The notes below the pieces were generated by a model that worked only from the letters and a program-made list of their open reading frames with translations, was not told the origin of the DNA and made no database searches. From positions 1 through 44,690 of the forward strand of contig SCQL01000064.1 of the NCBI GenBank assembly GCA_004299235.1: a stretch of 44,690 bases of DNA, in the 5' to 3' direction. Position 1 is the first letter of the stretch; the number at the start of each line of letters is the position of its first letter. This DNA is from a bacterium. Its GTDB lineage: Bacteria; Chloroflexota; Dormibacteria; Dormibacterales; Dormibacteraceae. The translations under genes and the position numbers were made by a program. Below are positions 32,538 through 43,392 of the stretch, one piece after another.

Positions 32538-33103
32538 ATGCCGGCTCCTCTCCTTTGCCTCAATCCAGGCACCGCCTGTCACAGTAAGCCGTTTCGGCGA
32601 GGTTGTTCGCGGACTAGGAATAGGCAATATCTCGGATCTAAATTTCGCTCAGCTCTTTGATTCCTGTGACATCCGTTCTTCAGCGGGCCAGATGTCAACT
32701 CTTTTCACTTGGTTTTCCAACTGCTGTGGCTGCCTAATCCGATTCTGTCCCATCAGGAGTGAGTTGTCAATAGAGGCTGGGCTGGTAAAGGTTGTGCTGA
32801 CAGGCAGTTTCAAAGTGGCGGACCGTCGTGCTTGGCATGGCTTAGACTTCGCGGGCAGATCGCCTGCTTTCCGTGGTTTTTTCTGGATGTGCCCTGTGAG
32901 GCTGCTCTTGATCGTTGCCCTGGCATATCGAAAACGAAAAGCAATAATGCGATAAGTTCCATGAGCGATGTCCCCGCCCGGCCCAGGTTTAGTATCGTGG
33001 CTTTTAGGTCAAAGTCTTGTTGGGCAGATTTCTTTTACTGCCTGCATTCCAATGAGTCCCTTCATAAGTGTTCAATGGTCACTCATTCGAGGAGGAAGTT
33101 ATC
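32538..33103. other. Intergenic region before aconitase
   Basis: About 565 bases separate the divergent reductase and aconitase genes. Short open frames exist, but none has a good start or recognisable product. The right end carries the aconitase ribosome site GAGGAGGAAG. I could not assign promoters with confidence. Confidence 0.5.
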
Positions 33104-35968
33104 ATGACACCAGTTGACAGCTTTGGAGCCCGGAGCAGTCTCGCGCTGGATGCAAAGAACTACCGGATATGCCGTCTTGCAGCCCTAAGTGATATTGCCG
33201 ACATCGCCCGCCTGCCCTATTCGATCAAGATACTCCTTGAAAACCTGCTCCGTCATGAAGACGGGCGCCTAATCACCTCGGAAGATGTAGTTGCGTTGGC
33301 ACAATGGTCGGGGCATAAAGAAGAAGAAAGCGTCGTGGCTTTCACGCCCGAGCGGGTTCTGCTCCAGGACTTTACAGGGGTGCCCGCCGTTGTCGACCTG
33401 GCGGCGCTGCGCGATGCTCTGGCCGAGCTGGGTGGTGATCCAGCTCTTGTAAGTCCAAGAGTGCCGGTTGAACTCGTCATAGACCATTCCGTTATTGCCG
33501 AGGTGTCCGGGAGCCCTGCGGCATTTGGCATCAATGCGAAAATTGAATACGAGAGAAACGTTGAGCGTTATCGCCTGCTTCGCTGGGCCCAGCAGGCCTT
33601 CGACCACTTTGTTGTAGTGCCTCCCGATACCGGAATTTGCCACCAGGTGAACCTGGAATATCTGGCGCGCGTGGTGTTTGTCACCGATGAAGGTGAGGTG
33701 TTCCCTGACACTCTGGTTGGAACGGACTCCCATACCACGATGGTGAATGGATTGGGCGTTCTGGGTTGGGGGGTTGGAGGCATTGAGGCCGAGGCTGCCA
33801 TGCTTGGCCAGCCCCTTCCGATGCCCACACCTGCTGTGGTGGGAGTGGAACTTTTAGGTGAGCTCGGTCCAACGGTGACTGCCACTGATCTTGTGCTGAC
33901 AATGGCCGAGCTTCTGCGCCGGCATGGAGTTGTTGGCAAGTTTGTGGAGTTCACCGGGCCCGGGCTTTCGCGGCTTCGAGCAGAGCATCGGGCCACGCTC
34001 GGAAATATGGCCCCCGAGTACGGGGCCACTTGCGCCATAAGCCCCATCGATGAGGTCACGCTTGATTATCTCAGGCTGACCGGCCGTTCGGACGAGCATG
34101 TCAACCTTGTCGAGCGCTATGCCAAGGAGCAGGGCCTCTTCCATGAGGCGAACAGCGAACGGGCTATGTTTTCGGAGCTGATCACTTTGGATCTGTCTGA
34201 AATCGAACCGAGCATTTCAGGTCCCTCCCGCCCTCAGGACCGCATTGCATTGAGCAAGGCCCGGCGTAGTTTCCGCACGGCGCTTGGGCATCTCGAGCCC
34301 GGGGCAATTGATGTCAACGGGCAAGCCGAGCCCACGGTCTCTGCTGAGATTGTCGATGGCAGCCCCGAAGAGGCTTCGGTGGAGTCATTTCCAGCCAGCG
34401 ATCCGCCAGCGGAAATGGCGGGGCAGAACGGGTCCGGCAAGCCCGATCCGTTCCTGCAGGCCCGGCTGGCCCAAGACGACTGCACGCCGGAACCACGCCG
34501 CATCTCACGGGCAGTAACAGCTGAGGTCAAGGGCCAAAAGGTTGAGATTGACGATGGCCATGTTGTGATTGCTGCGATTACCAGCTGCACCAACACCTCC
34601 AACCCTCAAGTCATGCTGGGCGCCGGGCTCCTGGCTAAACGGGCAGTGGAGCTTGGGCTGCAATCCAAGCCATGGGTCAAGACCTCGTTGGCGCCAGGTT
34701 CCCGGGTGGTGACCGAATACCTGGAACGTGCCGGGCTTGCCCAGCCACTTACCCAACTTGGCTTCGATTTGGTGGGCTACGGATGCACAACCTGCATCGG
34801 CAACTCCGGGCCGCTGCTTGAAGGGGTTTCAGAAGCTATTGCCAAAGGGGATCTGGCCACGTGCGCCGTACTCTCTGGGAACCGCAATTTCGAAGGCAGG
34901 ATACATCCTGAGGTGCGCATGAACTATCTCGCCTCTCCGCCGCTGGTTGTGGCCTATGCCCTGGCGGGCACGATGGACATTGACATTGTGACTGAGCCGC
35001 TTGGATATGCTCCAAATGGTGATCCGATCCTGCTCAAGGACCTTTGGCCAAGCACATCTGAGATAAATGCCGTTGTCGATGACGTGCTCGGCCGCCAGCA
35101 GTTCACTTCGTCTTATGCGACTCTGTTCGATGGCGACGAGCGATGGGCTTTGCTGGAATCAGGAACCGGCCTCCGCTTTGATTGGCAGCCGGACTCCACT
35201 TACGTGCAGCAGCCGCCGTTCCTGCATGGAATCACAACAGATGTTCCAGAACTGGCCGACATCCGTGGAGCCAGAGCTCTAGCCGTCCTTGGCAACAGCA
35301 TCACAACTGACCACATCTCGCCTGCCGGTTCCATCTCGGTTTCGGGACCGGCAGGACAGTATCTGATCGGGAAGGGAGTCCAGCCAAAGGACTTCAATTC
35401 TTTCGGGGCACGGAGAGGAAATCATGAGGTGATGTGGCGCGGAACCTTTGCGAACGTGCGTCTGAGAAACGGACTGGTCCCTGGCGTTGAAGGCGGGTTC
35501 ACCCGCTATCTTCCCACCGGTGAGCAGCTTTCGATCTTCGAGGCCGCAGAGAAGTACCGGCAAGCAGATATCCCATTGGTAGTACTGGCAGGCAAAGAGT
35601 ATGGCTCCGGATCCTCGCGGGACTGGGCAGCCAAGGGCACAATGCTTCTCGGGGTTCGCGCGGTGCTTGCCGAGAGCTACGAAAGGATCCACCTCTCCAA
35701 CCTGGTCGGCATGGGAGTACTGCCGCTCCAATTCGAGGAGGGTGCCTCCGTCGAGAGTCTCGGGCTCAGCGGTGAGGAGACCTTTGATATCACCGGGATT
35801 GCTTCGCTTTTCAATGGCGGCGGCGAAGGGCTGCAAGTTTTAGCGGATGGACGAAAGGTACCTGTTCGGGCGCGTCTCGAAACACCAAGTGAACGCGAGC
35901 ATTTTCGCCATGGCGGCGTTCTTCCTTTCGTGTTGCGCGAGCTGGCGGGCGAGGCTTCGCGGGCATAG
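33104..35968 (+). CDS. acnA: Aconitate hydratase A
   Basis: This 954-aa enzyme of the citrate cycle interconverts citrate and isocitrate. The start is ATG 33104, seven bases after GAGGAGGAAG; an upstream in-frame codon at 33068 is less likely. The 4Fe-4S ligands are Cys 495 (AITSCTNTSNP) and Cys 561/564 (GYGCTTCIGN), with the same 66+3 spacing as E. coli AcnA (435, 501, 504). Also present are the swivel domain GSSRDWAAKGTMLLGVRAV and the DSHTTMVNGLGVLGWGVGGIEAE region. A linker of about 60 residues before the first cysteine contains ESFPASDPPA near 427, a feature I associate with actinobacterial proteins. Confidence 0.97.
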   Translation: MTPVDSFGARSSLALDAKNYRICRLAALSDIADIARLPYSIKILLENLLRHEDGRLITSEDVVALAQWSGHKEEESVVAFTPERVLLQDFTGVPAVVDLAALRDALAELGGDPALVSPRVPVELVIDHSVIAEVSGSPAAFGINAKIEYERNVERYRLLRWAQQAFDHFVVVPPDTGICHQVNLEYLARVVFVTDEGEVFPDTLVGTDSHTTMVNGLGVLGWGVGGIEAEAAMLGQPLPMPTPAVVGVELLGELGPTVTATDLVLTMAELLRRHGVVGKFVEFTGPGLSRLRAEHRATLGNMAPEYGATCAISPIDEVTLDYLRLTGRSDEHVNLVERYAKEQGLFHEANSERAMFSELITLDLSEIEPSISGPSRPQDRIALSKARRSFRTALGHLEPGAIDVNGQAEPTVSAEIVDGSPEEASVESFPASDPPAEMAGQNGSGKPDPFLQARLAQDDCTPEPRRISRAVTAEVKGQKVEIDDGHVVIAAITSCTNTSNPQVMLGAGLLAKRAVELGLQSKPWVKTSLAPGSRVVTEYLERAGLAQPLTQLGFDLVGYGCTTCIGNSGPLLEGVSEAIAKGDLATCAVLSGNRNFEGRIHPEVRMNYLASPPLVVAYALAGTMDIDIVTEPLGYAPNGDPILLKDLWPSTSEINAVVDDVLGRQQFTSSYATLFDGDERWALLESGTGLRFDWQPDSTYVQQPPFLHGITTDVPELADIRGARALAVLGNSITTDHISPAGSISVSGPAGQYLIGKGVQPKDFNSFGARRGNHEVMWRGTFANVRLRNGLVPGVEGGFTRYLPTGEQLSIFEAAEKYRQADIPLVVLAGKEYGSGSSRDWAAKGTMLLGVRAVLAESYERIHLSNLVGMGVLPLQFEEGASVESLGLSGEETFDITGIASLFNGGGEGLQVLADGRKVPVRARLETPSEREHFRHGGVLPFVLRELAGEASRA

Positions 35969-41500: not shown

Positions 41501-42105
41501 TGTCTCTCCTTGGTGCATACTTGCCAGATAATTTAAAGAACTGGTGGACTTGGATTTCCGGAGCCACAGCCAGGAAACTGTAATGGTAAGAACGAGTTTT
41601 ACCACTGATGAGGTCTGGCTGGACAAAACCGCAAAGTTCAAAACACGCGGAAAAGGCAAAGGATTGCCGAAACGCCTCAGGCGAATTTGCAGCGATCATG
41701 CGCCTCGTACTGCTTGGAATTAACGCTTTCGCCATCTGCCGTACCCTCTCAATTGTGTTGGGAGTCGCTGAAGGGCTTCATTGCACCGCGTGTGTTTCAT
41801 TTATTCTATTCCAGACTAGAGATATGCGATGCCTAAGCTTAAGCAGGATTCTCTCTGTCATGCTGAGATGGAGCGCAATGCCCTTTTGAACCATTAAAAG
41901 TTATTTCAGCGTTTCTTTTGACATCGGTGTATCGATGGTCTTTGGAAACATGCCCAAGACGTCTTTACGGGGGACTGTTTTTTGGACTCAGTTCCCGAGC
42001 GTGTGAGGCATCTCGTGGAGCGCCGTTCACCTGGCTGCTGATGCTAAATTGCGCGTAGTGGTGATAGATTCGTAATGGAAATCTAGCGGATTTGAGCGTG
42101 ATCAT
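41501..42105. other. Divergent intergenic region between CMD gene and the small operon
   Basis: About 600 bases without a supported gene. A TTGACA box is at 41918-41923 on the plus strand without a matching -10. The right end leads into the GTG start of the 82-aa gene. Promoters for both directions must lie here, but I cannot place them. Confidence 0.4.
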
Positions 42106-42354
42106 GTGAAAGGTTTACTGAGAGCACGCAGCACGGACGGATCTCTGCTTTGCCCGGTCTGCGCTAGCCCGGCGCAAGATCTATATGTCCTGGCATCCCA
42201 TCTGGTGGAGAAAGCAGAAGCCAGCGACGGCGCCCACGTGATGTGGCTAAACCGCAACTTGACCAAGCACCGCAAATCCATTGAGGAAATTGAGCGGCTG
42301 CTGGTCAGCCTGCTGGCCGAAGAGAGGCCATCCGACGAGGTGGTGAAACGATGA
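42106..42354 (+). CDS. 82-aa CxxC/His zinc-finger-like protein
   Basis: It starts with GTG 42106; the ribosome site is weak (GAG). The sequence has CPVC at residues 16-19, histidines at 32, 44 and 55, and a charged C-terminal helix (KSIEEIERLLVSLLAEE). Spacing recalls a zinc-binding finger, but no named family is recognised. The stop overlaps the ATG of the next gene (ATGA at 42351-42354), so the two are translated together. It is the first gene of the three-gene operon with a di-metal oxidase-like protein and the TGA-interrupted protein, suggesting a joint role in metal or thiol chemistry. Confidence 0.75.
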   Translation: MKGLLRARSTDGSLLCPVCASPAQDLYVLASHLVEKAEASDGAHVMWLNRNLTKHRKSIEEIERLLVSLLAEERPSDEVVKR

Positions 42355-43103
42355 ATCAATCTATGGCATCCAGGGTTGAAAAGGCGGTAATCGAGGGATG
42401 GTTTCTTGATCCGCCGCCGCTGATAGCTGCGATGGCAAACGGGCCCACAATCGGCGTAACGAGGGCTTTTGTGCTTCAGTGGACCAAATTCTCGCGGCTG
42501 TTTCCACGCTGGGTGGGGTCAATAATGTCGAACTGTCCTGAGTTTGCGGTGCTGGCCTACGAGGTGGAAAACCTAATGTCCGAGGTTGTCCGCGATCCTG
42601 AAAGCGATGGCAACCACTACCAGCTCTTGACCCGCCTAGGAGAAAGTGTCGGTCTTAGCCAAAATGAGATCGAGACTTACCCGGAGCTTCCACAGTCATC
42701 TGATCTCTTTGAATGGTTGTGGAGGAAAGCGCGCAACCCCGATTGGCTCATCGGCTTCGCTGCTGTTAATGGCCTGGAGATTTTGGGAGACCGGAACCTC
42801 CCTTTGAAATATGGTGTTCAGTCGGGCACCGGACTTAACCCTGAACCCTATGCCGATATCCTCGGACTTGAAGAGGAGAATCTTGAGTTCTTCAGGGTCA
42901 GCGATCAGGCCGATGCGGGTCACGGGCATGAAACCGTCGAAATCCTTGCGCGCTATACCCCGGCTGGGCGCGAAGACGAGATCCTGGCGGTGCTAAAAGA
43001 GGCTATGGATCAGCTGAGGCTAATGATGAACGCCCTGTGGGAATTGGCTACAGTGATAGACGCCGGACTGAATTCCAAAGCGAGGGCTGATGGCGAAGGG
43101 TGA
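42351..43103 (+). CDS. Heme-oxygenase-like di-metal protein (TenA/PqqC/CADD fold)
   Basis: This 250-aa helical protein resembles iron-containing redox enzymes of the heme-oxygenase-like fold. YEVENLMSEVV near 70-80 provides the first glutamate, GNHYQLLTRLGESVGL at 87-102 the first histidine (H89), GLEILGDR a glutamate (E143), and FFRVSDQADAGHGHE the last helix. That helix normally reads H-x3-D-x2-H; here Ser 184 stands for the first His, while Asp 188 and His 191 remain (His 193 nearby). Related enzymes cleave or oxidise amino acids, fatty acids or peptides. It overlaps genes on both sides, so its substrate may be a neighbouring small protein; that is inference. Confidence 0.75.
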   Translation: MNQSMASRVEKAVIEGWFLDPPPLIAAMANGPTIGVTRAFVLQWTKFSRLFPRWVGSIMSNCPEFAVLAYEVENLMSEVVRDPESDGNHYQLLTRLGESVGLSQNEIETYPELPQSSDLFEWLWRKARNPDWLIGFAAVNGLEILGDRNLPLKYGVQSGTGLNPEPYADILGLEEENLEFFRVSDQADAGHGHETVEILARYTPAGREDEILAVLKEAMDQLRLMMNALWELATVIDAGLNSKARADGEG

Positions 43104-43392
43104 CCCTTGTGATCTGTGTGGATCCACCTGGGGGGATGTTGACCAGGAAATTGGCGGCCGCAGGTATCATTTCTGCTGAGACCTTTGAGCCGCCGCGTTC
43201 GCCAATTTGGTTGCAGCCATTGAGGGGCAACTGGGTGAAGGCGTTGTCGTCCGGTCGGACGACGTAGACGGAAATGACGTAACGGGCCTGGCTTGGCTTG
43301 CCACTGATAGCGAGTCCAAGTACAGCTATGCGGCGGTCTTCAATGACGATGGGACACTTGTCAGCTGCATCATTGGAGAGTTGAGTGGCTGA
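43090..43392 (+). CDS. Putative UGA-recoded small metal-binding protein (two internal TGA codons)
   Basis: The frame opens at ATG 43090 inside the end of the previous gene. It reads MAKGDPCDLCGSTWGDVDQE IGGRRYHFC, then TGA (43177), Asp-Leu, TGA (43186), AAAFANLVAAIEG, and continues without interruption to TGA 43390: 100 residues if both internal stops are read. The pattern C-x2-C...Y-H-F-C-[C]-x2-[C]-x3-F is that of TRASH/YHS-like treble-clef zinc sites, and both TGAs fall on the expected cysteines. The part after the stops (about 67 residues) looks protein-like. Reading TGA as selenocysteine or cysteine explains this best. A pseudogene or a 29-residue peptide are the alternatives. The family may be Ta0938-like (from memory, unverified). 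Confidence 0.65.
43200..43243 (+). other. SECIS-like hairpin after the TGA pair
   Basis: Hand folding gives CGCC (43200-43203) with GGCG (43240-43243), then ATTTGGTTGC (43205-43214) with GCAACTGGGT (43227-43236), four pairs of which are G-U. A 12-base loop AGCCATTGAGGG can close two further C-G pairs. The apical part lies about 26-38 bases after the second TGA, within the usual range for bacterial SECIS elements. Sequence rules for these are loose, so this is supportive only. Confidence 0.35.

Follow-up and report, generated by a model that had tools for sequence, protein, structure and literature searches.

A putative selenoprotein family on the Ta0938 domain, with two or three in-frame UGA codons and a displaced SelB-type hairpin

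The locus and its three-gene cassette

The window, meaning the whole stretch of 44,690 nucleotides analysed here, carries a cassette of three overlapping genes in the order zinc finger, haem-oxygenase-like and Ta0938-type (Table 1). The third gene contains two in-frame TGA codons, and translation confirms the earlier sequence-only reading that the frame past them stays open to the terminal TGA. With TGA taken as a residue (U), the product reads MAKGDPCDLCGSTWGDVDQEIGGRRYHFC-U-DL-U-AAAF...ELSG. It holds the motif C7-x2-C10 ... YHF-C29-U30-x2-U33-x3-F37, just as that reading had described it with cysteines in place of the two U.

Table 1. Features of the cassette and of the putative recoding signal, in window coordinates
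Feature	Position	Strand	Basis or remark
Small C2H2-type zinc-finger protein, PF16293	42106..42354	+	overlaps next gene by 4 nt
Haem-oxygenase-like / TENA-type protein, PF14518	42351..43103	+	overlaps selenoprotein start by 14 nt
Putative selenoprotein gene of the Ta0938 family; product of 100 residues with Sec at 30 and 33	43090..43392	+	PF11494 match, homologue 2fqh
TGC, Cys29	43174..43176	+	TGA in 5/7 loci, giving tandem UGA-UGA in those five
Putative Sec-UGA 1, residue 30	43177..43179	+	TGA in 7/7 loci, Cys in 2fqh
Putative Sec-UGA 2, residue 33	43186..43188	+	TGA in 7/7 loci, Cys in 2fqh
Hairpin 1, inferred spacer hairpin	43192..43245	+	outer stem present in almost every locus, inner stem partly kept, apical loop variable
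Hairpin 2, inferred SelB site, GUCGUCC-GGUC-GGACGAC	43246..43263	+	GGUC loop at 43253-43256; conservation, fdhA likeness
Terminal TGA, real stop of the selenoprotein gene	43390..43392	+	translation

The claim that both TGAs stand where cysteines are expected is borne out by the domain match. PF11494 (Ta0938) covers residues 6-91 and spans both TGAs with an E value of 3e-17 when they are read as Cys, scoring 63.2 bits against a gathering cut-off of 27 bits, and it is matched by all six members scanned. The homologue 2fqh (hypothetical protein TA0938), whose structure is solved, has this domain and the C-x2-C ... F-C-C-x2-C pattern in common with the window protein. Its FCCDIC aligns with FCUDLU of the window, so that a relative with Cys at both places, the counterpart foreseen for a recoded gene, does exist.

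Two domains match the window protein more weakly, TRASH_HVO_1752_C with E 2e-5 and YHS with E 0.003. Both matches are under the curated cut-offs, and they agree with a metal-binding site. The predicted structure has a pLDDT of 83.6. A Foldseek search with this model gave no confident match, and 2fqh was not among the matches listed.

Both upstream genes precede the third gene in all seven loci compared below. A single solved chain, 4lqx, a TENA/THI-4 domain-containing protein from Sulfolobus, matches both upstream proteins, the zinc finger at 19-74 and the TENA domain at 88-293. There the two are fused, whereas the window encodes them in separate, overlapping genes ahead of the selenoprotein gene. 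The fusion suggests that the cassette proteins act together, and the Ta0938-type protein is a probable partner of the haem-oxygenase-like and zinc-finger proteins. That it binds soft metals, or serves the haem-oxygenase-like protein as a redox partner, is only our guess, made from its motif and the neighbouring genes.

In-frame UGA codons and the selenocysteine machinery

The gene was compared at seven loci in seven genomes, namely the window, L010 and L011 (from genome contigs), L051, L052 and L053 (from the order of G455) and L055 (from the class of G456). Every one of them, the window included, has TGA at residues 30 and 33. Residue 29 varies, being Cys in the window and L010 and TGA in L011, L051, L052, L053 and L055. 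The latter five read FUU-x2-U with a tandem TGATGA, spelled YHF-UU-DL-U in L011.

The proteins are 62–84% identical across the seven genomes. L010 is 82–84% identical to the window protein with the same two TGAs, and L011 is 64–65% identical with three. No frameshift or other internal stop occurs in any of the seven loci, with L010 leaving its contig end after 93 codons. Downstream of the TGAs, dN/dS is 0.36 against L010 and 0.23–0.31 against L011, L051 and L053, and by these ratios purifying selection continues beyond the TGAs. The dN/dS values and the haem-oxygenase-like identity figures leave out L055.

These comparisons bear on whether the TGAs are decay mutations in a pseudogene whose sole product is a short N-terminal peptide. 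Standard annotation would indeed end the protein at residue 29. However, the same two Cys codons are TGA in seven genomes at this degree of divergence, without a frameshift and with selection acting on the frame behind them. The sequence-only reading had called two independent hits on cysteine codons a coincidence, and had named frameshifts and further stops in relatives as refuting evidence; the first point is upheld, and no such lesion turned up in the seven loci. The pseudogene is largely refuted and, as far as comparison can tell, decay is excluded for practical purposes; we leave it barely any credence.

The selenocysteine genes, whose absence would have spoken against recoding, are present. 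Among selA, selB, selC, selD or a UCA tRNA, the window genome has selA and selB adjoining on contig C1, selD on C9 and a tRNA-Sec with the anticodon UCA on C15. It also has three other selenoprotein genes, SelD (GAG-U-ACK) and two FdhA (U-HGPT and U-HAPS); the fdhA genes, with Sec codons at the U-H-x-P site, lie on C26 (L034) and C31 (L035) of the same genome, G000. SelA and tRNA-Sec(UCA) are likewise present in the genomes of L010 and L011, the two relatives tested. The tRNA-Sec gene of the window genome (L002 1497-1597) sits between a recombinase-like ORF (346-1383) and a thioredoxin-like ORF (1615-1944).

UGA is not reassigned globally, since TGA serves as an ordinary stop at the end of the selenoprotein gene and also of the gene just upstream. 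These stops also count against a reading of UGA as Cys or another residue, without selenium, by a suppressor-type UCA tRNA. Such decoding would fit the Cys of the known homologue and has the UCA tRNA as its sole direct requirement, but the UCA tRNA found is tRNA-Sec and all the sel genes are there. ARAGORN, run on selected loci and not on the whole genome, showed no second UCA tRNA there. We rate this decoding as very improbable.

The sequence-only reading had allowed recoding to either selenocysteine or cysteine. Its selenocysteine half is supported and its cysteine half is less favoured, because a SelB-type hairpin (see below) and other selenoprotein genes are present. Homology, the exchange of TGA and Cys, purifying selection, the Sec genes and the conserved RNA are established by comparison of sequences. 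Insertion of selenocysteine at UGA30 and UGA33 is inferred from them with high confidence, in the absence of any protein, 75Se or mass-spectrometry data.

This is a rare gene. Of 110 genomes from the window's class, the window's own was the only one found to carry it; the order of G455 gave 4 of 298 genomes and the class of G456 gave 2 of 395. PF11494 was found in the window itself alone in the class and a phylum sample of its genome, no relatives were found in the plasmids and viral contigs searched, and no Cys-only version of the gene was found in the bacteria examined. One further candidate, L012, was rejected as a relative, being a Cys-containing YHS-type sequence that is not close.

The cassette DNA is 88% identical between the window (41963-43369) and L010 (2443-3850), and the haem-oxygenase-like protein is 89.6% identical, although the SelA proteins of the two genomes share only 42% identity. 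From this disparity, horizontal transfer probably brought the cassette into one of the two lineages. Three loci have an aconitase gene close to the cassette or adjoining it (window 33068-35968, L011 4783-7692 and L053 from about 2043).

Two hairpins downstream of UGA33

Two adjacent hairpins follow UGA33 with fixed spacing in the seven sequences. In hairpin 2, the loop and five of the seven pairs are invariant in all seven loci, 98% of the cells are paired, and L053 has one compensatory double change of G-C to A-U. Its GGUC loop keeps a fixed offset of 67 nt from the U of UGA33 in all loci, which places it 64 nt past UGA33 and 73 nt past UGA30. Hairpin 1 begins 3 nt past UGA33, and its outer stem is kept with 93.5% of the cells paired.

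Bacterial SECIS elements have a 4–16 bp stem, a 3–9 nt loop with an early G and a stable fold, and most but not all of them place the apical loop 16–37 nt from the UGA (PMC13188914). Hairpin 2 meets the shape rules with its 7 bp stem, GGUC loop and early G but fails the distance rule for both UGAs. Formate dehydrogenase genes, E. coli fdhF among them, supply the bacterial SECIS for comparison. In the window genome itself, the fdhA hairpin on C26 is GUCGCC-GGUCU-GGCGAC, and its loop lies at +21 when counted from the U of the UGA. It is near-identical to hairpin 2 in sequence and both have the GGUC loop, yet that of hairpin 2 is at +67 with a whole hairpin in between.

Codon usage and a motif scan were also considered. 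The Arg55 and Ser56 codons that span the loop are CGG TCG in all seven loci, while the four other invariant six-fold-codon columns use three codons each; permuting codon variety among the invariant columns within and next to hairpin 2 gave no significant result (p = 0.21). Scanning 458 kb of strand for a GGUC loop on a stem of 6 bp or longer gave 13 hairpins, of which seven belong to this gene, one to fdhA and five lie elsewhere. In each of the seven loci the native sequence folds more stably than its synonymous shuffles, with z of -1.7 to -3.4.

Covariation is thin. Three pairs are changed on both sides, a level reached by 44 of 500 shuffles and inflated by relatedness, and the covariation measures overall are reached in about 25–45 of 500 shuffled alignments. 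An Rfam search of the region found no known element.

On the fdhA likeness, the GGUC conservation, the codon constancy and the scan, we infer hairpin 2 to be the likely SelB site. The same selenoprotein could instead be served by hairpin 1 as the SelB-binding SECIS, leaving hairpin 2 as a by-product of the conserved RSDDVDG peptide. Hairpin 1 is well placed for this, as it lies close behind UGA33 with its apical region at about 26 nt, inside the published range, and its outer stem is preserved. Its apical loop, however, varies between lineages (AGCC.. in the window, AGAC.. in L010, AGUU.. in L011, CAUCGA in L051 and UGGA in L053), often without the early G, and the constant GGUC, the compensatory change and the fdhA likeness of hairpin 2 would remain to be explained. 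We consider this assignment unlikely, if possible.

In the arrangement that we favour, UGA30 and UGA33 would be decoded by SelB with tRNA-Sec(UCA), and SelB would most likely be anchored by the hairpin with the invariant GGUC loop. Hairpin 1 is inferred to fold out the intervening coding sequence, about 54 nt, and so to bring the GGUC hairpin close to the UGAs. A single distal signal would thus act on two or three UGAs, including the tandem UGA-UGA. It counts against this arrangement that the sharing of one bacterial element by several UGAs has no established mechanism.

As to the protein, its TRASH/YHS-like metal-binding site has five conserved Cys positions, of which two would be Sec in the window and three in most relatives. 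Soft-metal binding or redox chemistry is the probable task of these Sec residues, a biochemical role that is inferred and no more than a guess. Taken as a whole, this scheme of spacer hairpin, distal SelB hairpin and metal site with two or three Sec ligands is somewhat better than an even bet, held less firmly than the SelB assignment of hairpin 2 alone.

Place among the known selenoproteins

FmdB is a zinc-ribbon-type protein. Two Sec three residues apart, which the sequence-only reading had thought unusual, are not new in themselves, as UxxU families are already known in the metal-binding protein NF041115, the FmdB family TIGR02605 and the Prx-like UxxU proteins (PMC13188914). The present family likewise has two Sec three residues apart but differs from all three by the third, adjacent Sec in its relatives. 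More unusual than UxxU would be this third tandem UGA together with the displaced two-hairpin signal, neither of which the sequence-only reading had mentioned. The YHS-domain selenoprotein NF041384 has the motif GxU with a single Sec, whereas the present family has merely a weak YHS/TRASH match.

The suggestion of a new selenoprotein family has gained support. A 2026 inventory that covers 119 families of prokaryotic selenoproteins does not include Ta0938, nor any Ta0938 member with Sec where 2fqh has Cys (PMC13188914). The NCBIfam selenoprotein models, including NF041115, TIGR02605 and NF045648, gave no match at E <= 1 to six members. Very probably, this is a new selenoprotein family with two, and in relatives three, UGAs read as Sec.

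The signal layout, with the RNA unusually far downstream, is possibly new as well. Neither three Sec as U-U-x2-U nor a SelB hairpin displaced behind a spacer hairpin was found in the sources consulted, subscription papers being outside the search, and we make no claim of being first.

Search models that require the 16–37 nt spacing would miss the GGUC hairpin. The seven natural sequences offer material to test the action of SelB at a distance via a folded spacer and the service of several close UGAs by one signal. In summary, these results would add a selenoprotein family on a domain without a recorded Sec member, with U-U-x2-U in most of its members.
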